This document shows, piece by piece, positions 39,882 through 64,000 of a stretch of DNA of 64,000 nucleotides. Where the stretch lies: the NCBI GenBank assembly GCA_020722065.1, contig DYLK01000006.1:1-64000 (forward strand), written 5' to 3'. Under the pieces are notes generated by a model. The model did no database searches, was not told the origin of the DNA, and saw nothing but the letters and a program-made list of their open reading frames with translations. Source of the stretch: Melioribacter roseus (GTDB lineage Bacteria > Bacteroidota > Ignavibacteria > Ignavibacteriales > Melioribacteraceae). A program made the position numbers and the translations under genes. The stretch's first letter is position 1, and each line of letters opens with the position of its first letter.

Positions 39882-41651
39882 TTAATCACTAATTTTAATA
39901 TGTAATTCTTTCAATTGCGATTCATCAACAGGCGAAGGCGAATTGTCCATTAGCGACATTGCACTCGATGTTTTTGGAAAAGCAATTACATCGCGAATTG
40001 AATCTCTTTCTGCAAAAATCATTGCGAGCCTATCGAATCCAAAAGCAATTCCTCCGTGTGGTGGTGCTCCAAATTTGAAAGCATTCATCAAAAAGCCAAA
40101 TTTCATTTGTGCTTCTTCGTCCGAAATTCCCAACGCTTTGAACATTTTTGCTTGCAATTCCGAGTTGTGAATTCTTATACTTCCGCCTGCAATTTCACTT
40201 CCGTTCATAACCAAATCATAAGCTCTTGCTTTTACTTCGCCAGGATTCGATTCCAACTTATCTAAATCTTCAATTTTTGGTGAAGTAAATGGATGATGCA
40301 TTGCATAAAAACGCTGAGTTTCTTCGTCCCACTCAAAAAGCGGAAAATCAGTTACCCAAAGTAGTGCTGGTTTTGAATCTGGTTTAATTAAATTTAATTG
40401 TTTAGCAAGTTCAAGACGCAAATTCCCAAGAGCTTTTAGTGATTTATCTTTTTCTGCTGAAACTATCAGAATTAAATCTCCAATATTTGCGTTCATTTCT
40501 TGTTTAATTGAAAACATTTCAGCTTCGGTTAAGAATTTTGAAATTGGCGATGTAAAACCTTCTTCGGTGATTTTTGCCCAAGCAAGTCCACCAACTCCTT
40601 GTTTTTTCACAAATTCTGTAAGATTATCTATTTGCTTTCGGGAGAAATGTGCAGCATTTTTTACAAGCAATGCCCCAATCACACCTTTTTCGTGAAAATC
40701 CTGAAAAACCTTAAATTCTGAATTTCTCACAATCTCGTTCAGATGAATAATTTCCATATCAAATCGCAAATCTGGTTTATCGCTTCCATATTTTTCCATC
40801 GCTTCATCATAAGACAAACGAGGAAGAGGAAGTTGTAAATCATAATTTTTTATTTCAGATAGAAGAATTTTCATCAGATTTTCAACAATTTCAAAAATAT
40901 CGGGAACATCTACAAACGACATTTCCACGTCAATTTGTGTAAATTCTGGTTGGCGATCTGCTCGCAAATCTTCATCTCGAAAGCATTTTGTTATCTGAAA
41001 ATATCTATCGAATCCCGAAACCATCAGTAATTGTTTGTATGTTTGCGGTGATTGCGGAAGTGCATAAAATTTTCCTTTGTGGATTCTGCTTGGCACAAGA
41101 TAATCCCGCGCACCTTCGGGCGTACTTTTCATCAAAATTGGGGTTTCGACTTCAATAAAATTCTGGGAATCAAAATATCGGCGGACAATTTGGTACATTT
41201 TGTGGCGGAGCAAAAGATTTTGTTGCATTTCTTTGCGGCGTAAATCTAAATATCGATATTGCAAACGCAATTCTTCGCTCGCATCAACTTTATCTGTAAT
41301 TGGAAATGGCGGCGTTTCTGCTTCATTTAGAATTACCAACTTTTCGGCAACAACTTCAATTTCACCCGTTTCCATTTTGGAATTCACCATTTCGGCGGGA
41401 CGTTTTCTCACTTTTCCTTCGACCGAAATTACAAATTCCAATCTAATTTTTTTTGCTAATTCCATCAACTCTGAATTGTTTTCAGTTGGCTCAAACACAA
41501 CTTGTGTAATTCCATATCTATCGCGAATAGTTATAAAAATCAAATTCCCCAAATCTCTGCGGGAATTCACCCAACCATTTAAAACCACTTCGTTTGATTC
41601 GTTTTGTATGCGAAGTTCTCCAGCTGTGTGCGAACGTTTATTGAATTTCAT
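39882..41651 (-). CDS. aspS: Aspartyl-tRNA synthetase
   Basis: 589 aa, the bacterial class II form with an OB-fold anticodon domain (NGWVNSRRDLG), a catalytic core and the inserted GAD domain (about 290-410). Class II motif 2 is visible as KCFRDEDLRADRQPEFTQID and motif 3 as GIAFGFDRLAMI. It charges tRNA-Asp; whether it also charges tRNA-Asn is not testable here. The ATG at 41651 follows AAGGAGAATTTG. Probably co-transcribed with argF. Confidence 0.96.
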   Translation of the reverse strand: MKFNKRSHTAGELRIQNESNEVVLNGWVNSRRDLGNLIFITIRDRYGITQVVFEPTENNSELMELAKKIRLEFVISVEGKVRKRPAEMVNSKMETGEIEVVAEKLVILNEAETPPFPITDKVDASEELRLQYRYLDLRRKEMQQNLLLRHKMYQIVRRYFDSQNFIEVETPILMKSTPEGARDYLVPSRIHKGKFYALPQSPQTYKQLLMVSGFDRYFQITKCFRDEDLRADRQPEFTQIDVEMSFVDVPDIFEIVENLMKILLSEIKNYDLQLPLPRLSYDEAMEKYGSDKPDLRFDMEIIHLNEIVRNSEFKVFQDFHEKGVIGALLVKNAAHFSRKQIDNLTEFVKKQGVGGLAWAKITEEGFTSPISKFLTEAEMFSIKQEMNANIGDLILIVSAEKDKSLKALGNLRLELAKQLNLIKPDSKPALLWVTDFPLFEWDEETQRFYAMHHPFTSPKIEDLDKLESNPGEVKARAYDLVMNGSEIAGGSIRIHNSELQAKMFKALGISDEEAQMKFGFLMNAFKFGAPPHGGIAFGFDRLAMIFAERDSIRDVIAFPKTSSAMSLMDNSPSPVDESQLKELHIKISD

Positions 41652-41790
41652 CAAATTCTCCTTAAAAATGAAAGCAAAAATAAGGAAAGAAACACTAAAA
41701 TGACGATTTTAAGTTGCCTTTTTATTCTTTATTGAGAAAGATTGGCTAACATTTTCTTATTTTATCAGACAAAAAATCAGAAAAAAGAAA

Positions 41791-43242
41791 ATGGATTTAA
41801 TTCAAAGTGTTGTAATTATTCTTGCTTCATATTTAATTAATCGAATTATTATAGATTCTAAAACTCACCTTTTCTACATTGATTATCTTTTAAGAAAGCA
41901 TCATTTCAATTTTTCCACACTTATTTCGTTTATTCTGTTTCTGTCGTATGGAATGTCGTTATTTTTCCCAAATACAGTAGTTGTTCTCTCGCTTTTGCCA
42001 ATTGTAAATTATTTATCAAAAAACGTAAAAGAAGACAACATAGAACATCTCAACTTACTAATGTTGGCTTTAATTTATGGTGCAAATATTGGCGGAATGG
42101 GTTCTTTGGTTGGCTCGCCTCTTAATTTTGTTTTTATTGGATTAATCGAAGCAAATCAAATTGCGGGAAAAGAATATGTTAGCTTTTTCACTTGGTTGAT
42201 TGTTGGAATTCCTGGTTCATTTGTTTTCTTATTAATTTCAAAGTACATTTTAGGAAGTGCAAAAAAATTGTCGAAAGATAGAATTGAAATTCAATTCGAC
42301 TTGAGTGGAATTACCCCCAAAAAAGCTAAAAAATATCTGCTATTTTTTGCTTTTGCGACAAGTATTTTGATTTTTCTCTCGGCAATCAAATTCCTTTTTG
42401 ATTTTAATTCTCCGAGCGGAAGAAATCTACTCGATTTATTTTTTATCACTTTTCTACTTGTAGTTATTTTTTTGGCATTTCTTCATCCTCGCAAAAAAAG
42501 AGATTTTGAAACACTTGTTTTTAATCTGAACCTTCTTATTGCGACTATTTTTACTTTCCCATTAATTATTTACAATCAATTTATCAAAGAAAACAATAAA
42601 TCGGGCAAGTTTACTAATTCCATTGAAAGAACGGATAATTTTATTGCCAACATTTATGATAGTCTAATTTTTCAGCGAGTTGATTCTAATTTTATAGATT
42701 TTCGCAAGAAAAACCCGTATTCATTTGTTTCGTTAAACAAAATATTATTCGACTTACCTTATTCTGGGTTTTTATTTGTAATTGTGATTTCGGTTGTGTT
42801 TATTGTTTCAATAACTTGGGGCGATAATCCAGCCACTAAAGTTATTGATGGAACTTTAATTCAGTGTCTTGGAAATAATCTGAAGGGAATTATCCCAATA
42901 AACGTTGGCTTTATTTATCTACTTTTTATTCTAATTTTCTTAACTATATTTTTAACCGAAATAATGAACAATACAACAATTGTTCTAATCTTTTCTACAA
43001 TTTTGCTCAGTATTCCAAATATACCCGAATGGAAATTGTTTATTTCACTTCTCGCCGTAACTATTGCCGCTGGCTCTGCTTTTATGACACCAATTGCAAC
43101 AACAGCAAATATGCTTGTTTATGCAAGTAGTGAACATCGCTCACTAAAAATGATGTTAAAAAAAGGATTTTGGTTAAATCTTTTTGGCTCAATTTTTCTT
43201 ACTGCCTTTTTTTGGTTACTTTCTTTTTTCTTTAGAAACTAA
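41791..43242 (+). CDS. DASS/SLC13-type anion:sodium symporter-like membrane protein
   Basis: 483 aa, about ten to eleven hydrophobic segments. The two SNT-like signatures of the divalent anion:Na+ symporter (and related arsenite/citrate) families appear in inverted repeats. The first is GANIGGMGSLVGSPLNFVF near 104-122; the second is EIMNNTTIVLIF plus SAFMTPIATTANMLVYASS near 390-450. These form the sodium and substrate sites. A polar insert (about 268-320) separates the halves. The substrate could be a dicarboxylate, sulfate or another anion. The ATG follows AAAAAAGAAA; the M16 gene follows after 69 bases. Confidence 0.8.
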   Translation: MDLIQSVVIILASYLINRIIIDSKTHLFYIDYLLRKHHFNFSTLISFILFLSYGMSLFFPNTVVVLSLLPIVNYLSKNVKEDNIEHLNLLMLALIYGANIGGMGSLVGSPLNFVFIGLIEANQIAGKEYVSFFTWLIVGIPGSFVFLLISKYILGSAKKLSKDRIEIQFDLSGITPKKAKKYLLFFAFATSILIFLSAIKFLFDFNSPSGRNLLDLFFITFLLVVIFLAFLHPRKKRDFETLVFNLNLLIATIFTFPLIIYNQFIKENNKSGKFTNSIERTDNFIANIYDSLIFQRVDSNFIDFRKKNPYSFVSLNKILFDLPYSGFLFVIVISVVFIVSITWGDNPATKVIDGTLIQCLGNNLKGIIPINVGFIYLLFILIFLTIFLTEIMNNTTIVLIFSTILLSIPNIPEWKLFISLLAVTIAAGSAFMTPIATTANMLVYASSEHRSLKMMLKKGFWLNLFGSIFLTAFFWLLSFFFRN

Positions 43243-60595: not shown

Positions 60596-62494
60596 TTAGT
60601 TTTTGTTAGATTGTTTTTCTGGAAAAGTTAAAACGATAGTTGTTCCATTTTGAATTTTTGAATGTATTTCTAATTCACCACCTAACATTTTAGTAAGTTT
60701 GCTTGCCAAGGTTAGTCCCAAACCAGCACCTTCATGTCGGCGGCGATAGCCATCAATTTCTTGTTGTGAAAACGGACGAAGCACTTCTTCGAGCATTTCG
60801 GGACTAATTCCAACGCCAGTATCTATAATTTCAATTCTAAAATCCTTATTTACTGGATAAGTTTTGATAACTACTTTTCCCTTCTCAATATTGTATTTTA
60901 TTGCATTTTCAATCAAAGCAAATAGAATCTTTTTAAGATGAATTTCATCTGTTTCAATGAATTTATTTTCTTCATCAAGATGCAAATCAATTCGAATTGA
61001 GTTTTGCTCGGCTGTTTGCTTTAATTCATCAACAACATATTCAAGTATTTTATTTACGTTATAAAGATGAATTTCTGTTTGCATTTCACCAGAATCAATT
61101 TGGGAAACATCTACAATATTGTCAACAAGTCGCAAAAGTCGTTCAACACCTTCTTTTAAGTAGGAAACAAATTCACTCATTTCTGGTTTTGATAAATTTT
61201 TAATTTCGTCTTCAAGTAAATCGGAATAACCAACAATTGCGTTTAATGGAGTTCTAATTTCGTGCGACATATTAGCCAAAAAGGAGGATTTCATTTTATT
61301 CAATCTTTTTTCTTTTTCATAAGCCTCGTGTAATTTTCGCTCATTTTCAATTTGTTGAGTTATATCAAAAAAAGAAATAATCATTATTGTTGTATGGTCA
61401 AATTCGTTTTCAAAAACTGATAGTTTACATAAGTACTCTTTCAATGTTGGTTGATGTGTATATCGAAATTTGAATTTGTTAGTCTTTTCAGATTTTATAA
61501 AATCCAAAGATGTTAAAACAGTATCCCAAAAGTGATCATTTGTAACTTCATCAAAGTGCTTCCCAATAATTTCTTCGGGACTCACTAAAAATTCTTTATA
61601 AAAATTCTCATTTGCTCCATCATAAAAAAGTGTCCCATTTTCTTCTTTTAAGATAATAATTGGCTCGAAAATGTTGTTTATTATTTCTTCTTTTCTTTTA
61701 TTACTTTGATTAATAACCGCTTCTCGTTCAATTAAAGCTGTTACATTAGTTGCCGTTACTACAAAACTAAGTTCTGCTTTTTCGCTTTGATAAAGTGGAC
61801 GAAGAAATAATTCTAGGAAAGTTTTTTTATTTTCAAATGTTATTTCAATTATTTCACGAAATTCTTCTTGATAGTTTATTGCATTCACTATTAATTTTTT
61901 ATTTTCTTCTGAACAAATATTTCCCAAAATATCGACTAAACTTTGTTTGTATATCTGCGAAATATCTTTTCCCAAAATCTGTTCGAAAGATGAAGTTGAA
62001 TAGGTAATTCTTCCTTCAATATCTAAAGTGATTACTGGAATTTTTCCAAATTCTAAGGCATTATGTAAATTATTTATTCTTTTTTCGATTTGTTTCCGTT
62101 CGGCTAATGATGAAAAAGTAATAACAGAAAACTCATTATTTTGAATCAGAATTCGGTTAATTTCAACAAAATAAGGTATCACCATATTTTGCTTTTGGTT
62201 AAAAAAATAAAAATCTAAATGAAAACTCGCATATTTTTTATTTATCAAATTAGTTAAGATATCATTTAGATTCGGGTCAGAATTTGGTATTTCGAACTTT
62301 TGTTTTTCTATTAGTGAAAATGCTTCAATAAATGGTTTGTTTGCATATTCAATTAAAAATTCGCCATTTTTCTCTAAGATAAGAATTAGTGGATTCGTTT
62401 CAGGAAAAAAGTTCATTTCTCGAAATTCTGAAATTGAAGAATATTCTTGTGCAATATTTTTCATCTTTTTTAATGTGGAATATTTAGCGTTCAT
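60596..62494 (-). CDS. Cytosolic three-PAS sensor histidine kinase
   Basis: 632 aa from the ATG at 62494, which overlaps the preceding stop region by 11 bases; ATG at 62464 and TTG at 62512 are alternatives. Three PAS-type domains (about 30-130, 140-255 and 265-380) precede a HisKA dimerisation domain with phospho-acceptor H411 (FLANMSHEIRTPLNAI). A HATPase follows, with N box ALIENAIKYN, G1 DTGVGISPE and G2 GAGLGLTLASKL. There is no membrane segment and no receiver of its own, so it senses an internal signal and should phosphorylate receivers in trans, the nearest being the two receiver proteins upstream. Confidence 0.92.
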   Translation of the reverse strand: MNAKYSTLKKMKNIAQEYSSISEFREMNFFPETNPLILILEKNGEFLIEYANKPFIEAFSLIEKQKFEIPNSDPNLNDILTNLINKKYASFHLDFYFFNQKQNMVIPYFVEINRILIQNNEFSVITFSSLAERKQIEKRINNLHNALEFGKIPVITLDIEGRITYSTSSFEQILGKDISQIYKQSLVDILGNICSEENKKLIVNAINYQEEFREIIEITFENKKTFLELFLRPLYQSEKAELSFVVTATNVTALIEREAVINQSNKRKEEIINNIFEPIIILKEENGTLFYDGANENFYKEFLVSPEEIIGKHFDEVTNDHFWDTVLTSLDFIKSEKTNKFKFRYTHQPTLKEYLCKLSVFENEFDHTTIMIISFFDITQQIENERKLHEAYEKEKRLNKMKSSFLANMSHEIRTPLNAIVGYSDLLEDEIKNLSKPEMSEFVSYLKEGVERLLRLVDNIVDVSQIDSGEMQTEIHLYNVNKILEYVVDELKQTAEQNSIRIDLHLDEENKFIETDEIHLKKILFALIENAIKYNIEKGKVVIKTYPVNKDFRIEIIDTGVGISPEMLEEVLRPFSQQEIDGYRRRHEGAGLGLTLASKLTKMLGGELEIHSKIQNGTTIVLTFPEKQSNKN

Positions 62495-63146
62495 CGGCAG
62501 TAACTTTTTCAATTTTTATTAAATTATTCCTTCCAACAGGAAATTCAAAATGATTTTGGATATCATATTTTTTTAATTTATGTAAAAAAGAATAAATAAC
62601 ATAAAAAATGTTAGTGAAATCTACCAAAACGTTTTCTTCAACACCATCAAGAATTGTGGAATACACAACTTCTTCAAATCGAAGTAAATCTGATGTAAAG
62701 TTTAATTTTTCTAATTTATTAAAAAGAGATTGAATTCCTTTAATCGGGAATGAAGAATATCGTTCAAATAACCGAATGTCTGGTTTTTTTACAAGTAATA
62801 TTACATTAAACAAACGGCGTTTCGTTAAACTTGTCCTTTCAGAAGAAAGGAAAACTTTTTGATAGGAATTTCGGTAGAAATCAACAATATCAATATTCAT
62901 CTTGAAATGGACATTTTCAATAAAAAAATCAAGCAAAACATTGTTTGAAGAAGAGTAATCGACTTCGCCAATTTGCCAATTAACTTGCGATATAAAAGTT
63001 GCAGCGGGAGAAAAAGTAATAGAATCTTGTCCTAAATCTTCTGCAAAAGCATTCGATTTAGAATATTTTTCGTAAATACTCAGATTTTTTCTGTGAGTGT
63101 GAGTGAATTTACTTGAATTTTCGATATTTCCTATTTTATTTAACAT
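62484..63146 (-). CDS. Unrecognised protein between receiver and kinase genes
   Basis: 220 aa from the ATG at 63146; a TTG at 63158 would add four residues. No signal peptide or TM. The N-terminal third is Ser/Asn-rich (SSKFTHTHRKNLSIYEKYSK), followed by SITFSPAATFISQVNWQIGE and an alternating beta/alpha region with FFIENVHFKMNIDIVDF; the C-terminal half is helical. I do not recognise a family. Its stop overlaps the kinase start and it follows the REC-DHp gene by 40 bases, so it should belong to the same signalling operon, perhaps as a sensor partner or regulator. Confidence 0.75.
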   Translation of the reverse strand: MLNKIGNIENSSKFTHTHRKNLSIYEKYSKSNAFAEDLGQDSITFSPAATFISQVNWQIGEVDYSSSNNVLLDFFIENVHFKMNIDIVDFYRNSYQKVFLSSERTSLTKRRLFNVILLVKKPDIRLFERYSSFPIKGIQSLFNKLEKLNFTSDLLRFEEVVYSTILDGVEENVLVDFTNIFYVIYSFLHKLKKYDIQNHFEFPVGRNNLIKIEKVTADER

Positions 63147-63186: not shown

Positions 63187-63858
63187 TTAGTCGGAATCTA
63201 AATCAAGCATTTGTGTGCTTGATGTATAATTGATTAGTTTGGGATTTTTAAGATTTGTTAAAGATTGAACCGCATTTTTTATTCGTTTAAGTGATTCTTC
63301 GGCAATAAAAATTTCATCTTCTAAATCAGGAATATTTTTTATTTGAATAGCATTTTTAATTGATTCGAGACTAATCTGCAAACTTGCAAGTGGGTTATTA
63401 ATTTGATGTCCAGTAGTAAAAGCCAAATCAATCAAAGCTCTATTTCTTTCATTTTCTTTTACTTCAGCTTGAAGATTAAAAATTCTTACTCCCGAACGTA
63501 TCCTTGCGATTAATTCTTCATTATCAACTGGTTTGGAAAGAAAATCATCAGCCCCAACATTCAAACCTTCAACTTTATCTTTTAATGTAATTCTTGCTGT
63601 TATAATTATATAATAAATATTTTTGTATGTCGGGTCGTTTTTCAACTTTTCACAAAGAGTAAGTCCATCCATTTCGGGCATTGTCCAATCAGCCAAAATT
63701 ACAGATGGCGAAAAACTTTTAAGCTTTTCAAGTGCTTCATAACCATTACCGGCAACTTCAGTTTTATATCCATTCTTTTCGAGCAATTTAGAATATGTAA
63801 ATCTACTATCTAATTGATCTTCGACAATCAAAACGTTTTCATTCTCAAATCTTTTCAT
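63187..63858 (-). CDS. Receiver-DHp protein lacking a kinase ATPase domain
   Basis: 223 aa from the ATG at 63858, one base after the upstream stop codon; a TTG at 63879 lies inside the preceding gene. Residues 1-125 are a complete receiver: acidic pocket VEDQ at 12-15, phospho-acceptor D57 (ILADWTMPEMDG), T87 and K109. Residues 140-205 form a helix pair with TTGHQINNPLASL, an H-box-like sequence with H151 in the phospho-accepting position of HisKA. No HATPase domain follows; the protein ends about 70 residues later. It could relay phosphate between D57 and H151 or bind the kinase DHp; both are inference. Confidence 0.88.
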   Translation of the reverse strand: MKRFENENVLIVEDQLDSRFTYSKLLEKNGYKTEVAGNGYEALEKLKSFSPSVILADWTMPEMDGLTLCEKLKNDPTYKNIYYIIITARITLKDKVEGLNVGADDFLSKPVDNEELIARIRSGVRIFNLQAEVKENERNRALIDLAFTTGHQINNPLASLQISLESIKNAIQIKNIPDLEDEIFIAEESLKRIKNAVQSLTNLKNPKLINYTSSTQMLDLDSD

Positions 63859-63859
63859 A

Positions 63860-64000
63860 TTATTTAGTACTTTCTTCAATCAAACTAACAATTCTTTCTA
63901 AAAAAAGATTGAAATCCATTATTGGTTTCTGAAAATAATCATCTGCTAAACAATCTTCTTTGTTTTTCTTACTTTGATTATAAGCAGAAACAAGAACTAG
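63860..64000 (-). CDS. Response-regulator receiver domain, C-terminal part (runs off the window)
   Basis: The last 46 codons of a gene that begins beyond 64000. The reading frame gives LVLVSAYNQSKKNKED, then ADDYFQKPI and a helix ending SLIEEST before the TAA. The VSA strand and the K-P dipeptide match beta-4/beta-5 of a receiver domain. No output domain follows, so it ends as a stand-alone or C-terminal receiver. It is the first visible gene of the phosphorelay operon, with one base between its stop and the next ATG. Confidence 0.75.
   Translation of the reverse strand, partial: LVLVSAYNQSKKNKEDCLADDYFQKPIMDFNLFLERIVSLIEESTK

Follow-up and report, generated by a model that had tools for sequence, protein, structure and literature searches.

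A receiver continuing into a HisKA-type hairpin without an ATPase domain, encoded in a flagellar operon of Melioribacter roseus and its relatives

The gene and its flagellar neighbourhood

The stretch of DNA analysed here (the window) comprises the first 64,000 nucleotides of a 110,884-base contig (DYLK01000006.1) in the 2.38-Mb genome of Melioribacter roseus (assembly GCA_020722065.1), whose nearest named relatives belong to the Melioribacteraceae and to other Ignavibacteriota. Near its right-hand end, on the minus strand, lies a gene for a protein of 223 amino acids (63187..63858, stop codon included), here named REC-DHp, which runs from an ATG at 63858-63856 to a stop codon at 63189-63187. 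The protein is confirmed as a complete receiver (REC) that continues into a HisKA-type DHp hairpin, after which the chain ends. Pfam detects Response_reg (1e-28) and HisKA (1.9e-4), the latter scoring 21.8 bits in this copy, under the gathering threshold of 26.9; no HATPase domain was found by Pfam, and NCBIfam returned generic receiver matches only. An AlphaFold2 model (mean pLDDT 83, pTM 0.68) places the receiver first, followed by one helix spanning residues 113-174 and containing H151, a tight turn, a second helix (177-201) and a short β hairpin. An initial annotation had described a full receiver with D57 and K109, then HQINNPL with H151, then the end of the protein; its coordinates and, with the ATG start, its residue numbers are exact. 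It overlooked the flagellar operon and also the single-domain receiver next door, part of whose gene lies inside the window.

The operon reads, in order, FlgI-FlgJ-FlgN-FlgK-FlgL-MotA-MotB-FliW-CsrA-(REC-HPt)-MotA-MotB-REC, then REC-DHp, a gene of unknown fold and a kinase, and this order is kept in most relatives. The receiver gene directly upstream encodes a single-domain protein of 131 amino acids; its 3' part occupies 63860..64000 (minus strand), it extends past the window to contig position 64255, and its stop lies 1 nt from the REC-DHp ATG. A single receiver adjoins REC-DHp in 21 of 22 related flagellar clusters (related loci with the upstream stretch present, counted by eye), the exception being the flagellated genome G026. 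In two genomes, G023 and G031, REC-DHp stands outside the cluster, and G023 still has the flagellar operon. None of the operon's three receivers carries a recognised DNA-binding domain. Farther upstream, outside the window, are two MotA/MotB pairs with FliW, CsrA and the REC-HPt protein between them (L003:4253-8733, equivalent to contig positions 64252-68732), an arrangement likewise kept in most relatives.

Downstream, a gene for about 220 amino acids (62484..63146, minus strand) separates REC-DHp from the kinase, as it does in most relatives that have the cluster. It is fast-evolving, with D39, S44 and W55 the sole invariants among 19 sequences, and AlphaFold2 confidently predicts a β-meander with C-terminal helices; no Pfam family was matched, and no convincing fold was found in the PDB (best Z 5.7, of the Mam33/p32 type). 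The PAS-HisKA-HATPase kinase that follows (60596..62494, minus strand, with an alternative TTG start at 62512) is cytoplasmic-looking and complete, with strong Pfam matches to HisKA (2e-19) and HATPase_c (7e-24) and a canonical SHEIRTPL box.

Residues kept and lost across the family

Full-length REC-DHp occurs in 28 of 39 genomes, comprising this genome and 38 relatives sampled from three families of the order; 27 of the 38 relatives carry it, at 43-57 % identity to the present copy. As the genomes are mostly metagenome assemblies, a missing gene in any one of them is weak evidence. HisKA is detected in 32/32 orthologues (best 3e-9), from which the sub-threshold HisKA match of this copy can be taken as real, and HATPase is detected in 0/32; all share the same length and C-terminal end. 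In a tree, a branch supported at 100/98 has the HATPase-less proteins on one of its sides, and the flagellar proteins form a single 95/97 clade, the sole full kinase on the HATPase-less side being a cyanobacterial protein on a very long branch, whose placement is unsure. REC-DHp is a conserved family, not a broken kinase.

The receiver (residues 8-122; 63493..63837, minus strand), which also matches receiver domains by fold, has a complete active site, with E13, D14, D57, T87 and K109 each present in 32/32 orthologues; the codon of D57, the phospho-acceptor aspartate, lies at 63688..63690. It bears an OmpR-like face made up of D104 (32/32), D105 (28/32) and R119 (30/32). Conservation of the linker in the orthologue alignment matches that of the receiver (0.79 versus 0.77), which suits a rigid transmitter. 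The FATGUY motif of strand β4, described for several intermediary receivers of the CckA/MrrA/SdrG type (PMC9981736), is absent from this receiver, which has T87-A88 in 32/32 orthologues and not T/S-G. This absence is weak evidence, because the motif's meaning is unresolved and the ShkA receiver likewise lacks it, according to the motif's authors (PMC9981736).

The DHp hairpin covers residues 141-203 (63250..63438, minus strand), on the evidence of Pfam, AlphaFold2, a PDB profile and the orthologues. Its first helix is predicted as a continuation of receiver α5, and the whole hairpin (113-174/177-201) was modelled, as a monomer, with pLDDT of about 71-80. A fold search with the entire model was dropped as evidence on the DHp, every listed row having matched the receiver half. 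As that search was uninformative here, a profile of the DHp alone was compared with all PDB sequences, and it returned histidine kinases alone at E < 0.02 (ZraS at 9e-6, ThkA, FixL and LvrB, with HK853 next at 0.03). The helix pair is HisKA-type by this profile and is predicted as a helical hairpin, in agreement with the DHp fold that the initial annotation had supposed. The conservation of H151, which that proposal had also presupposed, is borne out: the histidine (codon CAT, 63406..63408, minus strand) is invariant in 32/32 orthologues and in 13/13 paralogues.

The residue at H+1, an acid needed for autokinase activity in HisKA kinases, is Q152 in this copy (63403..63405, minus strand). Among the 32 aligned orthologues the position is Q in 14, K in 14, N in two, and R and E in one each, and is therefore non-acidic in 31/32, whereas it is D or E in 17/17 full REC-HisKA-HATPase controls (one cyanobacterial, the other 16 from the same class). 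The acid is not known to be needed in HWE/HisKA_2 kinases; the REC-DHp domain belongs to HisKA, not to HWE/HisKA_2. At H+4 stands N155 (63394..63396, minus strand), the phosphatase residue of HisKA proteins (PMC3510030), which is N in 32/32 orthologues, and the proline at H+5 (P156) is invariant as well. H151 and N155 are two of the nine positions that never vary in the DHp and tail, a stretch where conservation averages about 60 %. The tail itself (residues 206-219; 63202..63243, minus strand), in which P206 and Y211 are invariant and M217 is kept in 31/32, is predicted as a β hairpin and falls, in the alignment, where HATPase starts in full kinases; the protein ends about 20 residues beyond the second DHp helix.

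In the kinase CrdS, the H+1 acid is required for kinase activity only, E372Q being kinase-dead and phosphatase-competent, and the H+4 asparagine (N375) for phosphatase activity only, with matching results in HK853 and two other HisKA kinases (Willett and Kirby, PMC3510030). Exchange of the CrdS histidine itself (H371A) lowers phosphatase activity by only about four-fold (PMC3510030), so that an invariant histidine argues for some phosphotransfer as well. With the ATPase half missing, REC-DHp probably removes or relays phosphate and does not add it, and the earlier claim that it cannot autophosphorylate is strengthened, the H+1 acid being gone in addition to the HATPase domain. The pattern of residues suggests that the family gave up what a kinase needs (the H+1 acid and the ATPase) and kept the phosphatase residue N155.

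More distant members of the family, from the class and the phylum (f10, f18, f19, f30, f45 and f57), keep Glu at H+1 and one group, f13, has Q; loss of the acid thus marks the flagellar clade and f13, not the whole family. A second, paralogous REC-DHp family (13 rows) has K or E at H+1 and Gln at H+4 (NHxIxQPL), an example being L080:9391-10098 (G000:C46, about 41390-42100), and in several genomes the gene order is REC, 1180-aa hybrid kinase, REC-DHp, with flagellar genes absent. In a distant relative from family f5 (L107:9447-10175), Asp is aligned with the phospho-acceptor His (AADRIGNPI), and this relative is possibly a catalytically dead member.

Co-occurrence with flagella and contexts elsewhere

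At the level of the order, REC-DHp and the flagellar protein FlgI occur together in 27 genomes, REC-DHp alone in one, FlgI alone in none and neither in 11 (Fisher 7e-9, a statistic that ignores shared ancestry). The one genome with REC-DHp and no FlgI is 77 % complete, and its REC-DHp contig carries FliW, CsrA, MotA and MotB. The corresponding counts for CheW are 27/1/5/6, a poorer fit than that of FlgI. A link to chemotaxis was considered and rejected: G026 is flagellated and has REC-DHp with no CheW, and three genomes (G032, G033 and G038) have CheW with neither FlgI nor the orthologue. The association with FlgI loosens at the level of the class, where 33 genomes have both, 11 REC-DHp only, 15 FlgI only and 90 neither.

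Outside the flagellar clade, the contexts vary. In f13, a receiver and REC-DHp have as neighbours an HDOD protein, an NtrC-type regulator and a sigma factor of the FliA/WhiG type (L104:3667-10068, L103 and L114); FlgI is absent from every sampled f13 genome that bears REC-DHp, and the cluster is perhaps a remnant or a re-used motility circuit. In f18, the receiver and REC-DHp come after a hybrid kinase. In both groups a receiver adjoins REC-DHp in clusters that are not flagellar structural operons. A kinase precedes REC-DHp in several f10 loci, and f10 shows a conserved three-gene order (L100, L108, L112, L145 and L146) of a small HisKA-HATPase kinase, a large protein, identified as DUF4175 in the single case tested, and then REC-DHp. 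In f19, f30, f45 and f57, REC-DHp is found next to housekeeping genes, among them Lon, Thy1 and NFACT. Where REC-DHp has any recurring partner, it is a single receiver.

Possible functions and known counterparts

The reading preferred here, held tentatively and at a little under an even chance, is that REC-DHp is a response regulator with a kinase-incompetent DHp output, acting as a phosphatase or phosphotransferase on a partner receiver and gated by its own REC. The PAS histidine kinase of the operon, the presumed phosphodonor, would phosphorylate D57, and the phosphorylated receiver would alter a dimeric helical stalk running unbroken into the DHp bundle, a step suggested by the continuous helix, the linker conserved like the receiver, and the OmpR-like face. 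The DHp would then dephosphorylate, or exchange phosphate with, the upstream single-domain receiver, which H151, N155 and gene adjacency point to as the likeliest partner, and the outcome would be a phosphate level on that receiver set for flagellar control. Enzymatic activity, direction, partner and physiological output are all inferred; by analogy with PhyT, phosphatase and transfer activities need not exclude each other. Held more loosely again is the wider proposal that the receiver-gated, kinase-free DHp enzyme and the single-domain receiver constitute a flagellar control module of Ignavibacteria distinct from the CheA pathway. Counting against the preferred reading are the Gln at H+4 of the paralogues, the missing upstream receiver in G026, the Glu that more distant members keep at H+1, the small effect of H371A in CrdS, the HWE/HisKA_2 kinases with their freedom from the H+1 acid, and the separation of REC-DHp and FlgI at class level.

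Of the other readings, a true His-Asp relay like that of ChpT or Spo0B, in which phosphate would pass from a receiver to H151 and on to another receiver and net transfer would be the function, is unlikely, though the likeliest of them. The donor would be the upstream receiver or one elsewhere, and the REC-HPt protein may add a step; the invariance of H151 in orthologues and paralogues alike, the two further receivers and HPt in the operon, and the precedents of ChpT and PhyT as non-kinase DHp transferases all speak for it. The phosphatase residue at H+4 is, however, as invariant as the histidine, and the operon offers no obviously terminal receiver, none of the three having a recognised DNA-binding domain. 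The initial annotation had raised an internal step, from D57~P to H151 in one chain or dimer, like a Spo0F-Spo0B pair in one polypeptide. D57 and H151 are indeed both invariant and the domains stayed fused throughout the clade, yet the predicted helix is continuous from 113 to 174, with H151 38 residues past the start of receiver α5 and hence about 55 Å of helix (at 1.5 Å per residue) away from the end of the receiver that holds D57. On this model the step would require a break in the helix or cooperation of chains in trans. Together with the linker, whose conservation fits a rigid transmitter, and, weakly, the missing FATGUY motif, this makes internal transfer improbable; a receiver that gates the DHp, with a separate receiver as partner, fits the continuous helix and the missing motif better.

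It is only slightly less doubtful that the DHp serves for dimerisation or docking alone, as a coiled-coil scaffold or as a decoy for the kinase or a receiver, binding without chemistry. For archaeal REC/HisKA proteins that lack HATPase, a census put forward roles in dimerisation and in contacts between proteins (PMC5847659), and the conserved tail residues P206, Y211 and M217 could form a binding motif. A scaffold requires neither His151 nor Asn155, which are invariant amid a stretch of moderate conservation, and would not account for the release of the kinase-specific residue alone; the kinase decoy raised in the initial annotation likewise predicts none of these three features, and fits less well. 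Phosphorylation of H151 in trans, by the operon kinase's ATPase domain in a mixed dimer, is very improbable: a complete kinase is encoded two genes along, but 31/32 orthologues lack the acid that a HisKA domain needs to be phosphorylated by ATP, and the corresponding CrdS mutant is kinase-dead. A truncated or frameshifted kinase is barely credible; in its favour, the tail lines up with the beginning of HATPase in full kinases, and against it stand the shared end of all orthologues, the conservation of all catalytic positions and the 100/98 branch, on one side of which lie the HATPase-less proteins with only the one long-branch cyanobacterial kinase among them. A pseudogene or assembly frameshift was rejected on the tree and on the same-length orthologues in 27 of the 38 relatives.

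If the preferred reading is true, REC-DHp would show the kinase and phosphatase functions of HisKA set apart in nature, a separation known so far from point mutants of a few kinases. It would also represent a response-regulator output class that surveys noted but nobody assayed. It is a concrete candidate for a flagellar regulator in Ignavibacteria; a search of the literature on flagella and phosphorelay in this class found no paper and no described flagellar control circuit. REC-DHp forms an order-wide family of the flagellar operon with a distinctive residue signature.

Several known systems share parts of this design. PhyT of Sphingomonas melonis is a membrane-bound protein that lacks a receiver, and its DHp is of another class (HisKA_2). 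The likeness lies in non-kinase phosphotransfer on receivers by a conserved histidine, with a single-domain receiver as partner: PhyT passes phosphate from SdrG to PhyR, which it also sequesters (PMC5898713). ChpT of Caulobacter and Spo0B of Bacillus resemble REC-DHp in the lack of autokinase activity; their four-helix DHp is built from two hairpins, a design that the predicted hairpin of REC-DHp may share, and they differ as dimeric transferases without a fused receiver (PMC3433190). The Spo0F/Spo0B comparison of the initial annotation is apt as a description of how REC-DHp may work, not as membership. A degenerate ATPase-like C-terminal domain is present in Spo0B and also in ChpT, whereas REC-DHp has only its short predicted β hairpin. 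With Q at H+1 and N at H+4, REC-DHp holds naturally the state of the laboratory mutant CrdS E372Q (PMC3510030), although CrdS itself retains HATPase and is a complete kinase. By domain make-up, the archaeal REC + PAS/GAF + HisKA regulators of the AF_1472 type come close, likewise combining a receiver and HisKA without HATPase; the survey of archaeal two-component systems mentions such REC and HisKA proteins, none of them studied experimentally (PMC5847659). REC-DHp differs from them in having no PAS/GAF, in being bacterial and encoded in a flagellar operon, and in the selective loss of the kinase acid. Full-length response-regulator kinases of the REC-HisKA-HATPase type, from the same class, share its domain order up to the end of the DHp, differing in the retained HATPase domain and an H+1 residue that is acidic throughout, and are the probable ancestor type of REC-DHp.
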